From IMG/VR virus record IMGVR_UViG_3300023179_000350, positions 1 to 30,879 of that record: a stretch of 30,879 nt of DNA; one strand, written 5' to 3'. Shown one piece after another: positions 15,525-28,421 of this stretch (position 1 is the first letter of the stretch; the number at the start of each line of letters is the position of its first letter). Origin of the DNA: a virus. Under the pieces are notes generated by a model. The model made no database searches and was not told the origin of the DNA. It saw only the letters and a program-made list of their open reading frames with translations. Made by a program: the position numbers and the translations under genes.

Positions 15525-17513
15525 TTATACTGGTACCGCACTTGCTCCGCTTGCTGTTTGATATTTCTCTCCAGTCATTGGATTAGTTGGTAAATTTGGC
15601 AAGGCTCCCGTGACTTGTTCTAATGGGTTTTCCTGTCCTGCTTGTGATACTTGAGGAATTGATGGTTGTTCTGGAGTCTGAGGAGGTAAATTCTGCATTC
15701 CTAGAATTGCAAATAAATCTTTGTCTCCTGATCGCATTTGGTCAATGTGCTTTTGAATATGACCCAATACTACAACAACCAAATCAGGATTATTCCTAGC
15801 TTCTGGACTGTCTAACAATTGCTTATGTTCCTGAATATGCATAGGATGATTATCTGTCACTAGCACGGGAGGATCAATGCCATCGCTCATCTGCTCATTC
15901 TCTTGTGCGATTAACATCAATTGTCTTTGGATTGGATCCATGATTGAATCTAATCGTCCATTTTGTAAGACTGCAAAGTACATATCCGAATTCTTAACAA
16001 ATCCATATTGTAATAAAGTATCTGCTATTTGAATTTTTCCTGCAGTAGTCTTTGACAAAGGATTTCCCATGTCAACTATCACTCTCTGGACATTCTCTAA
16101 GTCTGATCCTTTAAATTCTTTCATGTAAGGAGTATTCATCTTTCCTACTATTGTCGCTACTCTCGGAACTGCAGCATAAGACTTTAACATATTAATAATT
16201 GCTGTTCCTGAGTCTTCCAATAGTTGAACATATCTTTGCTGTGTTAACTGAAGAAATTGTATTGCTTGTGATGCAACCAATGCCAAGGCAGCACCACTCT
16301 TAAGGCTTGCCTCTGGATTCCCTCTTACTACTGAGTTAATGCCTGATATTGATTCCATCTCATTGACTAACTCTTTGTATCTATTAAAGATTTCTACTGG
16401 GGTTGCAGTGAGGTTCATTGGTTCAGGCTTGCCCATCTTAGGATCATACTGTACTATATTCAATCCCCCTGATAATTCCTCGACATCAAGATTAGATCCT
16501 TTTGGAACTAATACGTTTTGCACTCCAAAGGCTTCTTGATTGGTTTGAATTGTAGATGCCAATCCATCGACTGCCCTCTGAATAGGAAGCATATCAAAAC
16601 TAACTGAATACCCAAAAGGAGAAGCATAAATTGACCCAGGATGAAGTGCATAGACTGGTATTTCTGGGTAAGGAATATCGGAATCAAATAATACTGTTCC
16701 GCCCTCTATAAATTCTGAGTATCTACCGTTCGGAACTGACTGAGTTTTATCATGATAGAATCTATAAAGAGGAATCAAATCAGAATCAGTTATACGATAG
16801 AAATCAAGAAAGTCATTTTTAAGATTTCCTGAAGTCATTTCTGAGTTAATAATATCATCTTGAAAGTCTGGATACTTTTTTGCAAGTTCATACTTGTTTA
16901 CAAACTCCCTGACTATCAACCAATTGCGATCTTCAAATTTTCTTAGATATGGATGCCTAATAATATCAATTCCAGAACAAGAAGTGAATTTAATGTCACC
17001 TTCTCGGATTGGTTCATTGTTCTGTCCTACTCCATATTCTCTTCCAAGTGCTACATCCCAATTTAAAACAATATAACCTTCGCCCGACCATATAGCAAAC
17101 TCGACCGCATCGGCTACATATCTTTCTAATCGCTTCTCTCTCATATAATAATCAAGCAAACCTTGTGCAAGTTTAGTTTGTGCTTGGCTTGAATAATCAT
17201 TATTGACTGCCCTTGCATCGAATGCAGGCCTCTGCGATACTGTGATAGATAGGATTGCTTGTAAGATAGAACGATAATGATTTACAAAGAGAAAACTGTA
17301 CTCTCCTGCATCTCCTCCTCTGACTGTATCTCCCAAATGATACCCTGCTCTAAAATATTGTCGATATGATTTTCGCCAAAGATCGAGCATCCCATTAATA
17401 CGAACATATTGATAGTAATCATCCACTTTCTTTTGGAGTTCTCCTCCAAGTTCATCAACTGTTAAGTTTGCAAAATATACTGCATTCTGCTCTAGCTTTG
17501 TTTTAGTTAACAT
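15525..17513 (-). CDS. Portal protein
   Basis: 662 residues, close to the size of P22-type portals. The N-terminus has aromatic- and Arg-rich helices (LWRKSYRQYFRAGY). The middle is alpha/beta with IYASPFGYSVSFDMLPIQRA, the stem and clip region, then a long helical segment with SGAALALVASQAIQFLQLTQ. The end is Pro/Gln-rich. It forms the dodecameric ring through which DNA enters and leaves, and follows terminase in the standard order with two small genes between. Confidence 0.9.
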   Translation of the reverse strand: MLTKTKLEQNAVYFANLTVDELGGELQKKVDDYYQYVRINGMLDLWRKSYRQYFRAGYHLGDTVRGGDAGEYSFLFVNHYRSILQAILSITVSQRPAFDARAVNNDYSSQAQTKLAQGLLDYYMREKRLERYVADAVEFAIWSGEGYIVLNWDVALGREYGVGQNNEPIREGDIKFTSCSGIDIIRHPYLRKFEDRNWLIVREFVNKYELAKKYPDFQDDIINSEMTSGNLKNDFLDFYRITDSDLIPLYRFYHDKTQSVPNGRYSEFIEGGTVLFDSDIPYPEIPVYALHPGSIYASPFGYSVSFDMLPIQRAVDGLASTIQTNQEAFGVQNVLVPKGSNLDVEELSGGLNIVQYDPKMGKPEPMNLTATPVEIFNRYKELVNEMESISGINSVVRGNPEASLKSGAALALVASQAIQFLQLTQQRYVQLLEDSGTAIINMLKSYAAVPRVATIVGKMNTPYMKEFKGSDLENVQRVIVDMGNPLSKTTAGKIQIADTLLQYGFVKNSDMYFAVLQNGRLDSIMDPIQRQLMLIAQENEQMSDGIDPPVLVTDNHPMHIQEHKQLLDSPEARNNPDLVVVVLGHIQKHIDQMRSGDKDLFAILGMQNLPPQTPEQPSIPQVSQAGQENPLEQVTGALPNLPTNPMTGEKYQTASGASAVPV

Positions 17514-17925: not shown

Positions 17926-18208
17926 CTTTTTCCTCGTATTCTTTTATTATTTCTTCTATGTTATTATCTATAAAATTTATCATTTCTTGATATTCCTCTG
18001 TTTGGTATTCTTTAACTATGAGCATATCTAACCAATCGCCATTAATACGTATCTCCCATGGATCGTTATATCTTTGTCTAAGATAAATTTTATATTCTTT
18101 TTGGTTAACCGTAAATGTTTTATAAATTTGAGATTGACACCATATAAGATCAATGTCCCATCCGTTTTCGATTCTACATTTTTCGTGAAATGGGTATTCT
18201 TTTCTCAT
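17903..18208 (-). CDS. Hypothetical protein after terminase
   Basis: 101 residues with a beta-rich first half (WCQSQIYKTFTVNQKEYKIY, then WEIRINGDWLDMLIV) and an acidic helical tail. Its ATG overlaps the terminase stop (TAATG), so it is co-translated. No family recognised; context would allow a packaging accessory role. Confidence 0.65.
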   Translation of the reverse strand: MRKEYPFHEKCRIENGWDIDLIWCQSQIYKTFTVNQKEYKIYLRQRYNDPWEIRINGDWLDMLIVKEYQTEEYQEMINFIDNNIEEIIKEYEEKDEPRRIA

Positions 18209-19611
18209 TATCTCCTAAACATCCTTTTTATATTTGCTCTCTCACTTGATTCTCTCTCGAAGTGAATATAATGTGTACTCGGTAAAGCCGTACTAGTAAT
18301 GGGAATTGGATTAGAATATTGGTCTATATTTCGAACCATATAAATCAAACTTGCAAGAGCGTCAAAGTGTCCGTACATATCTGACACATCAAATTGATTT
18401 CTTTGCTTGTTCCATATCCCTGCCCTAAGACATCCTATGAGTTCTTGACATCTATCCGAGACATATAATCTTCCCTGTGCTACAAAAACTCTAAGTTCAT
18501 TGACCATTGCTAAGAGAGTATCTTTAGAGGTTGGGGCAAAATGGACACCATGCATCAACGACATATCTTGTAATAGTATAACATTGTTATTATCTGCAAT
18601 ACGTCTAGGTTCAGTCATTCCATTAAATAGTTCTTCTTCTTTGGCTACTATTGTTTTTGCAATCAAATCCGTTGTCGTATCCTGTCCCGTTAATATAGAC
18701 TCATCCACTATTTGCAATATTGATTTCTTGAAATCATAGTATCCATAAAGAATAGCCGTTTTATGCCTTCCTCCGATATCCATAGAAATATAATTATGAT
18801 AGTACATTCTCCAAGAGTCTAGTTCTATATCCCCAATAAAAGTGTCATTCCATTCTGGAACAATTACAGACATTTCATCAACTACGAATTCACATAGGTA
18901 TTCTCTTTTCCATGTGCTTGAATTTACTCCTCCTGCCTCATTGCAATATAAATCAATAGTTTCTTGCTTAAGGCTTAAATTGTCATAGATAGTAAATTTA
19001 GAATAGTAATTTCCCCAAATAGCCTCTTGACATAGCCTAGGAAAATAATGAGCTGGAGTTCTTGGAGGAGTGCTTGAAATAATAGTCCTCCCCCCTGTGG
19101 TCAATGTTTGAGGCATAAGAATATCTTTTAAAACATACTCCAAATCTGAGATACTACCTGCTTCATCAATTAAGTTTAAGTCTGATCTATGCCCTCTAAG
19201 ATTCTCTGAATTATTGTTATCACACCCTGCAATATGTATTTCGGATCCATTTTGAAATACATATTTAGAATCTTGTGTTTTAAATACTGGTTTATATTTA
19301 TCAGGACAATCTGAAAGTATTTCTATCATAATTGGCTGTATAATTTCTTTTAATTGTTTTTGTGTAGGAGCCGCAAACCTTATTAATTTATTTGGACTTT
19401 TTAATGCCTGCTCGATTGCAAGAATACAAAGAGTAAAAGACTTCCCAAATCTTCTAGTACAATTAATTACATGTTTGATTGAGTTTGATTGCTTTATACT
19501 GTCATACAATTTAATCTGATAAGGTAAAAATTTATAGTACAAGTCTCCTACTTCCCACGATTCCAGGATTAGTTCATTGTATAATAATCTTTCCTTAGAA
19601 ATTGCATTCAT
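18208..19611 (-). CDS. terL: Terminase large subunit
   Basis: 467 residues, DNA-packaging motor. The ATPase has Walker A CTRRFGKS (Lys57), Walker B LNLIDE (Asp149-Glu150) and coupling motif ISSTPP (about 178-183). The RNase-H-like nuclease has Asp278 (SMDIGG), Asp340 (RRIADNN) and Asp417 (GHFDAL), so all key residues are present. The start overlaps the small-subunit stop (ATGA) with GGAG upstream. The packaging mode (cos, headful or terminal repeat) cannot be inferred from these motifs. Confidence 0.97.
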   Translation of the reverse strand: MNAISKERLLYNELILESWEVGDLYYKFLPYQIKLYDSIKQSNSIKHVINCTRRFGKSFTLCILAIEQALKSPNKLIRFAAPTQKQLKEIIQPIMIEILSDCPDKYKPVFKTQDSKYVFQNGSEIHIAGCDNNNSENLRGHRSDLNLIDEAGSISDLEYVLKDILMPQTLTTGGRTIISSTPPRTPAHYFPRLCQEAIWGNYYSKFTIYDNLSLKQETIDLYCNEAGGVNSSTWKREYLCEFVVDEMSVIVPEWNDTFIGDIELDSWRMYYHNYISMDIGGRHKTAILYGYYDFKKSILQIVDESILTGQDTTTDLIAKTIVAKEEELFNGMTEPRRIADNNNVILLQDMSLMHGVHFAPTSKDTLLAMVNELRVFVAQGRLYVSDRCQELIGCLRAGIWNKQRNQFDVSDMYGHFDALASLIYMVRNIDQYSNPIPITSTALPSTHYIHFERESSERANIKRMFRR

Positions 19612-20018
19612 CCGTTATTTGCTCCCATATCGGATCTTAGCTTATCTATTAGCATTCTTCTCTCTTCTGGACTTAGTCTCTCTGCAACTATTGATTCTCC
19701 TTTTGACGTTACATCCAAACCATCAATAATCTTTCCATGTCCTGAGTCCATTAGCTCTTTAAATGCAGGGACGTCACCTTTAAGTGCTTTGCCTATAAGA
19801 CTAATAACCATATGATCTTGAATAGATAATTTTTCAGGCTTTCCGCTAATAGGATTGGTTTTGGTATAGAGTGCTTCCAGCCATTCTCGGACGATTGTAG
19901 ATCGGTTGCGAGACCCCTTAGGTCTGCCAGTTTCTTTTCCATGGCTTCCTTGCAAAAGAGTTCCACCCCTAGCAGTTTTAATTGTTCTTATGGGTTTTTT
20001 ATGGGATTCATCTTTCAT
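19608..20018 (-). CDS. Terminase small subunit (putative)
   Basis: 136 residues. A basic N-terminal linker with GRPKGSRNRSTIVREWLEAL, a signature of small packaging proteins in many phages, precedes helical segments (LIGKALKGDVPAFKELMDSG) and a C-terminal helix (LSPEERRMLIDKLRSDM). It should bind the packaging start site and regulate the large subunit. Immediate coupling to terL (four-base overlap) is the main support. Confidence 0.75.
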   Translation of the reverse strand: MKDESHKKPIRTIKTARGGTLLQGSHGKETGRPKGSRNRSTIVREWLEALYTKTNPISGKPEKLSIQDHMVISLIGKALKGDVPAFKELMDSGHGKIIDGLDVTSKGESIVAERLSPEERRMLIDKLRSDMGANNG

Positions 20019-21085
20019 TTACTTAACCATTGTAAATATATTTGATGTGCTATTTGTGCAGTCATTACTGGCGGAACACTCATTCCTATTAAGTACTTTG
20101 GCTCTATATCAAAAAAATTATAATCTAATGGGAAAGATCCTATTTGCTGAATATCTATATTTGATATTTCTTTAAATTCATCATAATAAATATATTGATT
20201 TCCGCTAACTATAGTAGGAGCATAATCATTTTTTTTTATTAATACTCGACCAAAAGATTTTTGTTTTTTTTCAGTTCTTAAACATATATCACCAAAATTT
20301 TTATCTGTATCTTTTCTTTTTGTCCAATCAGAAAATAGTTTTCCGTTTCTTTTTAGTTCTAATCCATTTTTTGGATTTATAAAATCTTTTAACATTATAC
20401 TCTTTTCATTAAAATCTAATCTTAATTTAGGATAGTTCAACTCTTTCTTTGAGCAAATAAAAAATACTCTTTCTCTTTTTTGAGGGACTCCCATTGACGC
20501 AGCATTCAATAAAAACAATTGGACATTATAACCAATTTTATTTAGTTCTTTATTGATTTCTATTACATATCCTTTTGCATTGCCTTTAATTAATCCGCTT
20601 ACGTTTTCTGCAATTGCAATCTTTGGTTTTAGTATGCTAACAGTTTTAATCCAGTGAAAGAATAAATCATCTAATATTTGTTTTGCTTGACCTTCTCGAA
20701 ATACTTTTTCTTTTCCCCATGCTTTTTCTCTTGAACCTGCTATTGAAAATGTGCTACATGGTGGTGACCCGTCAAATATATCTAAATTAAATAATTCATC
20801 TGGAATATTATCTCTAAGATTAAATGTTCTTATATCTTCATTATAATAATATTTAGGATTGTGATTTTCTTTATATACCATAGCTAATTTTTTATCTATT
20901 TCAATTCCGCCTAAGTGATTATAACCTGCTAGTTTATAACCCATAGTAGAACCACCACCACAAAGAAAAGAACCGAATACTTTTAAATTATGCGATTCAA
21001 TATTTTTAGATGGATAACCATCTTTTAAATACCACTTATAAGGAAATTTATGATTAGAATCTAAATTTACATTTAGGGCATTCAT
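20015..21085 (-). CDS. C5 cytosine DNA methyltransferase
   Basis: 356 residues. Ordered motifs: I, VFGSFLCGGGSTMG (about 36-49, SAM binding); IV, DGSPPCSTFS with catalytic Cys110; VI, IAENVSGL (Glu160); VIII, QKRERVFF (202-209); X, GMSVPPVMTAQIAHQI at the end. All catalytic motifs are intact, so it is probably active and may protect phage DNA or alter regulation. The target site cannot be read from sequence. It overlaps the ParB-like gene by 32 bases and the small terminase by four. No restriction enzyme is adjacent, so it is a solitary enzyme. Confidence 0.94.
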   Translation of the reverse strand: MNALNVNLDSNHKFPYKWYLKDGYPSKNIESHNLKVFGSFLCGGGSTMGYKLAGYNHLGGIEIDKKLAMVYKENHNPKYYYNEDIRTFNLRDNIPDELFNLDIFDGSPPCSTFSIAGSREKAWGKEKVFREGQAKQILDDLFFHWIKTVSILKPKIAIAENVSGLIKGNAKGYVIEINKELNKIGYNVQLFLLNAASMGVPQKRERVFFICSKKELNYPKLRLDFNEKSIMLKDFINPKNGLELKRNGKLFSDWTKRKDTDKNFGDICLRTEKKQKSFGRVLIKKNDYAPTIVSGNQYIYYDEFKEISNIDIQQIGSFPLDYNFFDIEPKYLIGMSVPPVMTAQIAHQIYLQWLSK

Positions 21086-21524
21086 GCTCTAATCCATCCT
21101 CTATTAAATCCATATCAATCTCTTTGTTCTTATCTGAATAATCTTTTTCCTCTACATCAAAGTTAGGAAGGGTTAACCCCCAATCATCTAGTTCTTTATA
21201 ATCCCACTCATTGGCAAGCATAGCCCAATCCCATTCTCCAAAACCAACATTATCTTTGATGATAAATTCTCTCTGTTGTTCAGAAGTAAGATCGCTTGCC
21301 TTAATTATTGGTATTTCTTTTAATCCAGCTTCTTTGCATGCCTTGAGTCGCATATTGCCACCGAGAACTATATTATCGTCATTGACTACGATAGGACGCA
21401 TCTCTAGCATCTGAGGGAAGTCTAAGATTGATTGGACTAGCTTTTTAAATTTATCGTCTTTGATAATCCTGGGATTGTTAGGATTAGATTTAATATCTTT
21501 TATTAAAACACGTGTGGCATTCAT
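21054..21524 (-). CDS. ParB/Srx-fold protein with C-terminal CxxC
   Basis: 156 residues. IKSNPNNPRIIKDDKF and NIVLGGNMRLKACKEAGLKE are the two hallmark boxes of the ParB N-terminal fold, common in phage proteins encoded beside DNA methyltransferases. The last residues (HECPKCKFRF) give a single CxxC, half of a zinc ribbon. It is not a partition protein in the usual sense: no ParA and no central HTH domain. Coupling to the methyltransferase suggests a joint DNA-modification role. Confidence 0.8.
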   Translation of the reverse strand: MNATRVLIKDIKSNPNNPRIIKDDKFKKLVQSILDFPQMLEMRPIVVNDDNIVLGGNMRLKACKEAGLKEIPIIKASDLTSEQQREFIIKDNVGFGEWDWAMLANEWDYKELDDWGLTLPNFDVEEKDYSDKNKEIDMDLIEDGLEHECPKCKFRF

Positions 21525-25712: not shown

Positions 25713-27209
25713 TCATTTTTTACTCTTCTTAAATAAATAATTTAATTTATCCAAATCTTCCTGACTTGGATCCTTAACCATAAACAATCTATTCATCTCT
25801 TGTGATTCTTCTGGCGTTAAGTTTGCCTTGATCGGTTTTGCTAATGGTTCTTCCATAAAGATTCCTTTGGCTATCCTGTTCAAAACATCATTTGTCCGTT
25901 CCTGGAATTGCCTTTTTTCTTCCTCGGTAAACATGGCCTGTAAGTCTGCAATCCTATTGGCCTCAAGTTGCCTAATTTTTCGAGCATGTTCAATTTTAAT
26001 CTCACCGACTTTCTTCTTGGCATCCTTGGCGGCCAATCTGCAAACCTCAGAGTAAACCCCGTCAATGTCGTTAGAGAATCCACCAAGGCAGTACTTAAAT
26101 GTAGGATTACAATTCAGGTAGAGTGTTAGGTTAGCTTTTAAGATTTCTGGATACATTTGCTCCCGGTAAGGATCACCATATTTCTTGATGACGTAAATCT
26201 TGAGCATAGCCTCGACGGCCTGATAAATTCTCTTGGCAATCGAATCACGCTCATCTTTTCCCGAAGACATATATTTTCGGATCATGTCCTCCAAGATTTC
26301 CACGTCCTTACTGTCCTCTTTAATCACAAAATCTTTAGGCAGTTGATTATAGATTAAATTTAAAATTCTACGGGGGTTATTATCGAAGCCTATACCCACC
26401 CTGCTAAGGAAGTCTTCCGATGCCTCTAGAAGCGATTCTATCGTTAATTTCGGGATCATTATGTCGCTTTGTAGATTAAATTCCTGCTCTACTTTAGCAA
26501 TTTCATTCGAGTAGTGTTTACTAATCTCTTCTTCTTTGGTTCTGATCGCCAGCTGTTTGTGGTCTTCTGGCTCTAAGGATTTGTTGATGTTAAAGCCTAG
26601 CATCCTTGCAAGCTCGTGTTCCTCTTTAGAGAATTCCTTGGTAAGATCTATCTCTTGGGTGTGTGCTGAATTTTTGAACTCTTCGGTTTTTCCGAACTGT
26701 TCGGTAGGCTCGCTTTCTTTCACACTTTCTTTAATATTTATTTCTTTCTTTTGTTGTTCCCTCTGGGGTAACTCTTCAGTTACCTCTGGGGTAACACATG
26801 AGTTACCTCTAGGGTAACACCCTGTTACCTCTAGGGTAACACATTTACTTTTTCTACTGTGTTCCCTCTGGGGTAACTCTTCAGTAATATTTAGGATTTG
26901 ATAAAGATGGGAATTATTCTTATCTCCCTTTTTTAATATTTTAATGCATCCAATTGATATTAAATTCTTTACATCTTTAAATACTTTAGATATTGATATT
27001 CCTGTCTTTTGAGATATCTGTCTAATAGATATTCTATCATATTCTTTGTGATAGCCATAAATTTGACGGACAAAAACATTCATAATTTTTGTCTGATTGC
27101 CTGATAGATGAGGCATCCAATTGTCCAAAATCTCATTTGGGTACTGAGTAAAATTCGGAATAAATTCTAAATTTTTTTGATTGCTTTTTTCTTGTGGTGT
27201 GTTATTCAT
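25713..27209 (-). CDS. Lambda O-like replication initiator
   Basis: 498 residues, longer than lambda O (about 300). Residues about 15-105 form the winged-helix domain of phage replication protein O: FTQYPNEILDNWMPHLSGNQ, FVRQIYGYHKEYDRIS and ISQKTGISISKVFKDVKNLI. Residues 111-152 are encoded by iteron repeats, then a charged linker and a large helical domain (about 235-470) I cannot assign. It should bind the iterons and load the host helicase, directly or through a partner, because no phage polymerase or helicase is seen. Hand-counted GC is 11/60 at 26941-27000 (DNA-binding domain) against 26/60 at 26401-26460, suggesting a mosaic gene. AAGGA lies seven bases before the ATG. Confidence 0.78.
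   Translation of the reverse strand: MNNTPQEKSNQKNLEFIPNFTQYPNEILDNWMPHLSGNQTKIMNVFVRQIYGYHKEYDRISIRQISQKTGISISKVFKDVKNLISIGCIKILKKGDKNNSHLYQILNITEELPQREHSRKSKCVTLEVTGCYPRGNSCVTPEVTEELPQREQQKKEINIKESVKESEPTEQFGKTEEFKNSAHTQEIDLTKEFSKEEHELARMLGFNINKSLEPEDHKQLAIRTKEEEISKHYSNEIAKVEQEFNLQSDIMIPKLTIESLLEASEDFLSRVGIGFDNNPRRILNLIYNQLPKDFVIKEDSKDVEILEDMIRKYMSSGKDERDSIAKRIYQAVEAMLKIYVIKKYGDPYREQMYPEILKANLTLYLNCNPTFKYCLGGFSNDIDGVYSEVCRLAAKDAKKKVGEIKIEHARKIRQLEANRIADLQAMFTEEEKRQFQERTNDVLNRIAKGIFMEEPLAKPIKANLTPEESQEMNRLFMVKDPSQEDLDKLNYLFKKSKK
26756..26877. repeat. Five iterons, probable replication origin
   Basis: Five copies of the 17-base dyad GTTMCCTCTRGGGTAAC at 26756-26772, 26779-26795, 26802-26818, 26824-26840 and 26861-26877, start-to-start 23, 23, 22 and 37 bases. 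The core GTTACC/GGTAAC is an inverted repeat; the outer two copies have GTTCCC in one arm. They lie inside the O-like gene, as lambda iterons do. A purine-rich AT-rich patch (26711-26755 on the coding strand, AAAGAAAGAAATAAATATTA) follows and could be the unwinding element. Confidence 0.82.
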
Positions 27210-27274: not shown

Positions 27275-28006
27275 TTATTTTAATTTACTACTAATATATT
27301 CTTGCCCTTTACCTGTAATCAAAGTTTTAAATTTTACCTGATTTTTAGCTTCCAACACCCATTCTATTACTTTAAAATAACCTGCCTCGACATATTTCTG
27401 GTAAGGTATATTACTATCCATTAGTAGCTTATTATCTCGTAGCCATTCGAAAAGTTTCTTCTCTCCGATTCCAATTACTTTCCCAAAATCCCTTACTGAT
27501 ATTGCATTATTAGTATTAACAATCTTTTCCGCAAATTCAACTTTAGGTTTTTGTTCTTCCAATTGCTTTTGTTGATCTGCTATTTTTGATTGCATATTCT
27601 GGATGACTAGCAATGTCATTTCTTCGATGCTTAATTCAGGCTTAGAATTAATTGAATATGATCCAGTCTTACGGATTGATGGGAGTACTTTTGATGTTAC
27701 CCATTCTTTAAATTTAACTGCTTCAGATTTTCTTGACCCAAGTATTAACTCATATAATGCAGACTCATTTATTATTGTTAATTCTTGAATTCCTCCAGTA
27801 GTTTTAAGGGGGTATTTCCTGCTGACACCCTTTGTGCAATTATCAATTATTGCCTGTCTGCCGTTTGAATATCCTAATATCTTAGTAACATCACTGGCAA
27901 CAAACCAAATCTCGCTGTCAATAATTACAGTTCTTACTTGTTGGGTTTCAAAATCAAATATTGATATTTGAGTTTCTTTAGGTTGATTAAATAAATTTTG
28001 TTCCAT
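27275..28006 (-). CDS. BRO-N / KilAC phage antirepressor
   Basis: 243 residues. BRO-N domain at about 14-118: EIWFVASDVTKILGYSN and LTIINESALYELILGSRKSE, then FKEWVTSKVLPSIRKTGSY. A coiled linker is followed by a KilAC-type DNA-binding domain at about 150-240 (AISVRDFGKVIGIGEKKLFE, WLRDNKLLM, YQKYVEAGYF). Such proteins inactivate or replace repressors in temperate phages. Here no CI-like repressor or integrase is visible. A structured RNA leader lies directly upstream, with AAAGGAG before the ATG. Confidence 0.88.
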   Translation of the reverse strand: MEQNLFNQPKETQISIFDFETQQVRTVIIDSEIWFVASDVTKILGYSNGRQAIIDNCTKGVSRKYPLKTTGGIQELTIINESALYELILGSRKSEAVKFKEWVTSKVLPSIRKTGSYSINSKPELSIEEMTLLVIQNMQSKIADQQKQLEEQKPKVEFAEKIVNTNNAISVRDFGKVIGIGEKKLFEWLRDNKLLMDSNIPYQKYVEAGYFKVIEWVLEAKNQVKFKTLITGKGQEYISSKLK

Positions 28007-28027
28007 TATTGGGCTCCTTTAATGAGT

Positions 28028-28102
28028 CCCGATGGCATGGGTAGAAATTTGTGGTAGGTTTTGATTCTCCCTCAAGAATCTACCCGATGTGAGGGCATCG
28101 GG
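28028..28102 (-). ncRNA. Structured leader RNA with complementary hairpin loops
   Basis: In the leftward transcript, hairpin 1 is CCCGATG/CATCGGG (28102-28096 with 28089-28083) with loop CCCTCA. Two bases later hairpin 2 is GATTCT/AGAATC (28080-28075 with 28068-28063) with loop TGAGGG. The loops are exact reverse complements, so they could kiss. A second set exists: 28102-28096 also pairs with CATCGGG at 28034-28028, and GGGTAGA at 28085-28079 with TCTACCC at 28045-28039; these exclude the first set. The element ends about ten bases before the antirepressor ribosome site. Confidence 0.7.
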
Positions 28103-28112
28103 CTTAGTACTA

Positions 28113-28140
28113 TGTTATGTCGCTTGGGTTTTTTGTAAAG
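28113..28140 (-). promoter_or_regulatory. Possible antirepressor promoter
   Basis: Leftward TTTACA followed, 16 bases on, by TAACAT just upstream of the structured leader. Each resembles the sigma-70 hexamers (TTGACA, TATAAT) at four or five positions. It would place transcription start at or just before the leader. Confidence 0.4.
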
Positions 28141-28332
28141 TTATTTTTCCTGCTCTGCTTTATAAATCTCTAACAATTCAAGCATTGCTACTCTCGTTTC
28201 ATTTAGTGATCTTCGAGTCTGCTTTAGCTGATCCTTTTCTTTTTTGCTCAATATACTTTTCAATGATCGCTCTAAATATGCCTCGACTGTGATCAATGTT
28301 ATTAATTCGCTTTCAATTTGTGCATTTGTCAT
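28141..28332 (-). CDS. Small coiled-coil protein
   Basis: 63 residues, fully helical and charged (MTNAQIESELITLITVEAYL..., ending LELLEIYKAEQEK). GGAGGAAGT directly precedes the ATG. It starts within the TGA of an open continuation upstream. No family recognised. Confidence 0.7.
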   Translation of the reverse strand: MTNAQIESELITLITVEAYLERSLKSILSKKEKDQLKQTRRSLNETRVAMLELLEIYKAEQEK

Positions 28333-28421
28333 ACTTCCTCCAATTCCAAATTATTTTTAATATAGTTTTCGATTCCAGGATGCTTAGTCTTGAAACGTTT
28401 AATCCATGCCTCATACTCAAA
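28329..28421 (-). pseudogene. Continuation after in-frame TGA of the 28577 gene
   Basis: Thirty sense codons (FEYEAWIKRFKTKHPGIENY, then IKNNLELEEV) follow the TGA in the same frame with no start codon of their own, ending in a TGA that overlaps the next gene's ATG exactly as real genes here do. A single TGG-to-TGA change would explain it. It could also reflect readthrough or a sequencing error. Confidence 0.6.

Follow-up and report, generated by a model that had tools for sequence, protein, structure and literature searches.

A candidate bistable leader RNA with complementary hairpin loops before the antirepressor gene of a group of uncultured phages

The window analyzed here is an IMG/VR virus record of 30,879 bases, one of a group of records from uncultured phages. 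On its minus strand, between a small upstream gene (28332-28141) and an antirepressor gene (28006-27275), lies a leader that we interpret, with a probability of roughly 0.6, as a cis-acting bistable 5′ leader RNA of an antirepressor–replication operon, the antirepressor being a likely regulator of the choice between lysis and lysogeny. The leader carries two adjacent hairpins, P1 and P2, with mutually complementary loops, together with a rival set of pairings that reach toward the ribosome site. It most likely represents a new family of antirepressor leader, similar in its working to IsrK and C4 but unrelated to them.

Architecture of the leader

The minus strand is taken as the transcript because the antirepressor reading frame, 28006-27275, lies on it. 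Read in this direction from 28105 to 28007, the leader comprises P1, P2, c′, a″ and P3, followed by the gene. AAG precedes a, b and a′; a TA dinucleotide separates these from d, b′ and d′; a 16-nt stretch that includes CCTACC follows. The 3′ part then runs TCTACCC, ATGC, CATCGGG, ACTC..AAAGGAGCCC and ATG. The parts, all on the minus strand, are as follows.

28112..28139, minus strand: sigma-70-like promoter, TTTACA - 16 nt - TAACAT; predicted RNA start near 28105
28096..28102, minus strand: a, CCCGATG, 5′ arm of P1, with a″ as alternative partner (sequence and covariation)
28090..28095, minus strand: b, CCCTCA, loop of P1, complement of b′ (6/6 pairs kept in all distinct rows; two-sided changes in 5 pairs)
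28083..28089, minus strand: a′, CATCGGG, 3′ arm of P1 (pairs with a, 6 nt apart)
28079..28085, minus strand: c, GGGTAGA (GGGTRGAT in relatives), overlapping a′ and d, with c′ as rival-fold partner (variable pair: A-U replaced by G-C)
28075..28080, minus strand: d, GATTCT, 5′ arm of P2 (pairs with d′)
28069..28074, minus strand: b′, TGAGGG, loop of P2 (complement of b)
28063..28068, minus strand: d′, AGAATC, 3′ arm of P2 (pairs with d)
28053..28058, minus strand: CCTACC, kept as CCTNCC, between P2 and c′ (predicted rival-fold partner of b′)
28039..28045, minus strand: c′, TCTACCC, partner of c in the rival fold (sequence and covariation)
28028..28034, minus strand: a″, CATCGGG, partner of a in the rival fold, overlapping the 5′ arm of P3 (covaries with a in L026, lost in L019)
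28011..28030, minus strand: P3, Shine–Dalgarno hairpin, GGGaCTC/GAGCCC (GGACTC/GAGTCC in relatives; RNA folding and comparison)
27275..28006, minus strand: antirepressor gene, 243 aa, Bro-N and KilAC (ANT) domains, directly after the leader
25713..27209, minus strand: lambda O-like replication initiator, the gene after the antirepressor, in the same direction

A first-pass annotation had described the two hairpins, the exact reverse complementarity of their loops (CCCTCA and TGAGGG), and the rival pairings of CCCGATG with either copy of CATCGGG and of GGGTAGA with TCTACCC; every one of these is present. Its extent, 28028-28102, does enclose the core, but the whole element is longer, running from the promoter (28139-28112) to the Shine–Dalgarno hairpin (28030-28011). 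A strict form of the motif, in which a 7-bp hairpin with a 6-nt loop is followed by a 6-bp hairpin and the two 6-nt loops are fully complementary, has a single occurrence in the window and none in 100 dinucleotide shuffles, while a looser version turns up in 7/100. The minus-strand RNA is predicted to fold at −31.2 kcal/mol (z −2.9). The opposite strand can also form a long hairpin, a candidate dismissed since both gene and promoter lie on the minus strand. A leader peptide was likewise set aside: some phages have a short frame starting at an ATG within P1, but this ATG is missing in L026 and the frame is shifted in L008.

The promoter matches 9 of 12 consensus positions, a score that is common in shuffled sequence too. 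In the compared relatives, TTTACA stands 28 nt before the AAG of P1, with variable −10-like hexamers behind it, and this constant distance places P1 at the 5′ end of the RNA. At the other end, the Shine–Dalgarno sequence AGGAG (28018-28014) lies inside P3, a hairpin that is conserved without covariation and has a reduced length in L007 and L020. Two or three G residues of the P3 5′ arm also belong to a″, so that P1, a:a″ and P3 would compete as a chain, and this overlap would couple the fold of the leader to ribosome access. Two relatives carry inserts in the ribosome-site hairpin (L020, 5030-5090; L026, 3550-3600) that differ in sequence, are each self-complementary (GTTTC/GAAAC and TATAAC/GTTATA), and are flanked by AAGG/CCTT.

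Covariation among related phages

Scans of IMG/VR yielded nine further phages with the leader, all of a single group, for a total of ten with the window; two were found with the antirepressor protein as query and seven more with DNA patterns. Searched with a covariance model of the 43-nt core, each phage shows a single copy. Five distinct cores are represented, and in all of them the loops are perfectly complementary: CCCTCA/TGAGGG, CCCATA/TATGGG, CCCTAT/ATAGGG (within the 7-nt loops of L008), CGCCCA/TGGGCG and CCGTCA/TGACGG. In L026, P1 itself is replaced by CCCAGAG/CTCTGGG. Across nine distinct rows, all 171 of 171 cells of P1, P2 and the loop pairing are standard pairs. Two-sided changes affect 10 of the 19 pairs of fold A (P1 and P2) plus the loop helix, a figure reached by 0/500 shuffles, and pairing falls to 37-55% when the partners are slid against each other; for this alignment the L008 loops were cut to 6 nt. 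The loop helix b:b′ is 100% paired, with two-sided changes in five of its six pairs.

The rival fold B (a:a″ and c:c′) covaries more weakly. It is 93% paired, with two-sided changes at four pairs (6/500 shuffles) and 36-53% pairing in slid versions, in an alignment that was joined by hand from pieces with registers picked for pairing and is to that extent biased toward the model. Where GGGTRGAT varies between A and G, c′ carries the matching U or C. In L026, a″ changes together with a over five pairs and is there only partly paired; in L019, a″ is lost and unpaired. On the mRNA strand, the non-Watson–Crick cells comprise 13 G•U against a single A•C, along with eight other mismatches in the rival helices; the excess of G•U over A•C points to RNA of the minus strand as the functional unit. 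Together, these comparisons show, at the level of sequence, that the fold A pairings, the loop pairing and, less strongly, the fold B pairings are kept through matched changes, although five distinct cores from one phage group amount to few independent changes. Uncompensated changes in relatives had been named in advance as evidence against the element. The opposite was found: loops and stems change in matched pairs, as do the rival helices to a lesser degree.

Energetics and geometry of the two folds

Constrained ensembles of folds A and B differ by −5.5 to +8.3 kcal/mol, and B minus A lies within 3.7 kcal/mol in 8 of 10 phages, with loop pairing uncounted. In eight of the ten, fold B is predicted to expose the Shine–Dalgarno sequence modestly more than fold A does, a small change that is reversed in L020. 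In ensembles computed for the growing transcript, fold A prevails until c′ is transcribed. Once a″ is included, fold B takes over in eight; L004 is divided about in half, and L019 switches through c:c′ only. After transcription of P3, the window, L004 and L026 return to fold A, L005, L006, L008 and L016 are mixtures, and L007, L019 (c:c′ only) and L020 are in fold B. These models describe equilibrium and ignore pseudoknots and kinetics; within those bounds, they point to near-equal fold energies and to competition among P1, a″ and P3.

The following mechanism is consistent with these properties. In fold A, P1 and P2 would form as they are transcribed; their loops could pair, P1 and b:b′ making an H-type pseudoknot, and a″ would be free to join P3, which holds part of the Shine–Dalgarno site. 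In fold B, a″ and c′ would displace P1 and P2 to give a long irregular hairpin (a:a″, c:c′), withdrawing the GG of a″ from P3 and making the ribosome site more accessible. Antirepressor output would then depend on how the leader divides between A and B. The controlled step would presumably be translation, with fold A as the less translated, off state and fold B as the on state, and loop pairing would bias the choice between them. Possible triggers are the order in which the RNA folds as it is made, a processed leader copy, or a protein. The earlier suggestion of a switch built from mutually exclusive folds before a ribosome site thus holds for the folds, both of which covary, while the regulation itself we infer.

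How the loops meet is constrained by geometry. A rough A-form estimate indicates that stacking intact P1, the loop helix and intact P2 in one molecule would leave about 50 Å (51 Å) to be spanned, against 20 Å for the linker, and that about four P2 pairs must open for the 2-nt linker to reach. P1 and P2 should therefore not both be fully formed while the loops pair within one molecule. Of the proposed kissing-loop or pseudoknot element, the loop complementarity is retained in every phage, but on this modeling steric reasons make it doubtful that both hairpins, intact, could kiss fully in cis. More likely, the loop pairing takes the form of an H-type pseudoknot, built of P1, b:b′ and a crossing loop of 8 nt, that alternates with P2, or else occurs between molecules. 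A symmetrical double kiss between two leaders, with loop 1 of each joined to loop 2 of the other, should be free of the linker problem; the 2-nt linker would permit it because the helices can lie side by side. We give the double kiss little credence, yet if true, the leader would sense the number of phage transcripts and its loops would carry the immunity type.

Genomic context and exchange of leaders

A terminase is common to all nine records long enough to hold it, the window included (74-100% identity); the tenth, L006, is a short contig. The gene after the leader is antirepressor-like in all but one of the ten phages, the exception being L006, where it is of no recognized type. Bro-N with KilAC fills this slot in three phages and another N-terminus with KilAC in two, while in four a Rha-like or Bro-N part is joined to a shared C-terminal domain; in L019, the slot gene lies behind an extra 90-aa gene. 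The L006 gene (1594-1998, 134 aa, GTG start) is the sole slot gene without a Pfam or PHROGs match, and its leader core is identical to that of the window. Overall, the slot (27275-28006 in the window; L050, L051, L054-L062) appears domain-shuffled, with several N-terminal types attached either to KilAC or to a different, near-invariant C-terminal domain (YHRITIYGKKFRPDLDQ...). In most phages, this variable gene is followed by a replication-type gene, and each of the nine leader-bearing records searched has a gene with partial-length similarity to the window's O-like gene. Since the downstream genes differ among phages, the leader is, judged from these sequences, tied to the promoter/antirepressor module and not to one particular antirepressor.

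The leader and the O-like gene are both missing from G017, a more distant relative (terminase 69%), whose reading frames include a different, apparently primase-helicase-like gene. The remaining relatives found by terminase are fragments with no leader match. Apart from L026, further scans of IMG/VR that used the promoter, P1/P2 or slot genes as queries returned only chance sequences or the known ten phages. A genome collection searched with the DNA pattern and a terminase profile gave no match, nor did known phages and plasmids searched by DNA. In G008, the terminase is 92% identical to that of the window, yet its leader core (L061, 4955-4997) is identical to those of G004 and G007, whose terminases are 74-76% identical to the window's; this mismatch suggests that leaders have been exchanged between phages. 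The portal and terminase of the window (15525-17513 and 18208-19611) match known phages weakly, the best being a Silvanigrella aquatica phage record at 28-29% identity, so that host and phage group are apparently undescribed. Adjoining the terminase genes, at 20015-21524, the gene for a ParB N-terminal-like protein overlaps one for a C5 cytosine methylase.

Alternative explanations

An unlikely but substantial alternative is that the leader acts in trans: its processed 5′ part would pair with c′/a″ or with loops in other leader copies, in the manner of C4 RNA in P1 and IsrK in Gifsy-1, and so make related phages immune to one another. The gene position before an antirepressor is that of C4 and IsrK (PMC4825925, PMC12197685), the pairing partners stand immediately upstream of the ribosome site, and the loops vary between phages while staying complementary, as specificity loops should; identical cores in phages with different terminases are likewise what exchange of leaders would leave. 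Against this, no terminator-like site lies within 27900-28400, the interval between P2 and the gene included, other targets in the phage genomes are limited to matches of 10-12 nt (the 16-nt matches being the leader's own opposite strand), the leader is no homologue of C4 or isrK, and pairing in cis accounts for the same complementarities.

An improbable reading is that a phage or host protein binds the leader, with the pseudoknot made by P1 and the loop pairing as its nucleation site, much as gp32 binds the T4 gene 32 leader. P1 (7 bp), b:b′ (6 bp) and the 8-nt crossing loop fit an H-type pseudoknot, the phage encodes an SSB, and in the gp32 precedent, too, the leader begins with a pseudoknot, which precedes a ribosome site with less structure (PMC535899). 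In the present leader, however, the ribosome site is structured and the first gene is not an SSB, and c:c′ and a:a″ would be left unexplained. It is very unlikely that the palindromes are simply DNA operators, bound after the promoter by a dimeric repressor and devoid of any RNA role: two perfect inverted repeats and a third half-site at the predicted transcription start would suit such a protein, but neither the spacer-to-spacer complementarity kept in all phages (five spacer pairs) nor the 13:1 ratio of G•U to A•C on one strand would follow. Least credible is a linker conserved only as a crossover site for exchange of the antirepressor module, which would explain a conserved leader ahead of a changing gene but would demand sequence identity, whereas here the sequence changes and the pairing is kept.

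Comparison with known systems

The cis-acting bistable leader favored here was compared with the known RNA families of phage antirepressors. Rfam searches at gathering and relaxed levels gave no credible match in the window, riboswitch families included. C4 (RF01695/RF03163) and isrK (RF01394) gave no match at E values up to 5 in the window leader or up to 1 in nine leader loci. In a positive control on phage P1, the same search returned the C4 models at E 3e-13 and 6e-12, recovered c4-a1b1, and scored the P1 leader against isrK at E 7e-6, below the isrK gathering score; conversely, the leader model R1 has no match in phage P1. Since C4, c4-a1b1 and a sub-threshold isrK are found in phage P1 and none here, the leader is no member of these families by sequence or structure. 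No report of a kissing leader before an antirepressor was found in the open-access literature searched. A conserved unpaired aptamer core, the mark of a ligand riboswitch, is absent from the leader, nearly all of whose conserved core bases are paired; two loops of conserved complementarity, the mark of a kissing-loop element, are present.

Loop pairing controls expression in the IncI/IncB repZ leader pseudoknot and in the ColE1 RNAI/RNAII kissing loops, both of which differ from the present leader in serving plasmid copy control through a separate antisense RNA from the other strand. C4, for its part, is a processed, trans-acting RNA of ~77 nt. The T4/RB69 gene 32 leader (PMC535899) likewise belongs to a phage mRNA and places a 5′ pseudoknot ahead of the ribosome site; it differs in its autoregulation by gp32, its unstructured ribosome site, and the lack of any described rival fold. 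The P4 CI RNA and its seqA-seqC immunity leader (cited in PMC4825925) likewise bear complements on either side and control phage replication genes, whereas the present leader gives no sign of a processed RNA or of transcription termination. In P1/P7, C4 acts as an antisense RNA against the ant leader (PMC12197685). It resembles the present RNA in being encoded in an antirepressor operon leader and in having a pair of short complements (a, b) around the first gene's ribosome site, but the leader described here has no C4/c4-a1b1 match and no separate upstream a1b1 target, and its loops pair with each other.

IsrK of the Gifsy-1 Salmonella anrP operon (RF01394; PMC4825925) is similar in having an antirepressor mRNA 5′ leader with two mutually exclusive folds of near-equal energy, a 5′ part of which pairs with sequence near the ribosome site. 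Its silent and active folds precede anrP, and it is opened in trans by its own short RNA (PMC4825925). Two exclusive folds before an antirepressor are found here as well, by comparison and by computation; unlike IsrK, however, the present leader has no isrK match, no terminator for a short RNA and no upstream ORF, and its 5′ part is a pair of hairpins whose loops are complementary. Leader RNAs in control of phage antirepressors have been described in a handful of enterobacterial phages (C4, IsrK, P4). That an unrelated RNA seems to do their work in uncultured phages suggests repeated acquisition of RNA switches by antirepressor operons, and this one, with few parts and natural variants of its loops, is well suited to swap experiments.
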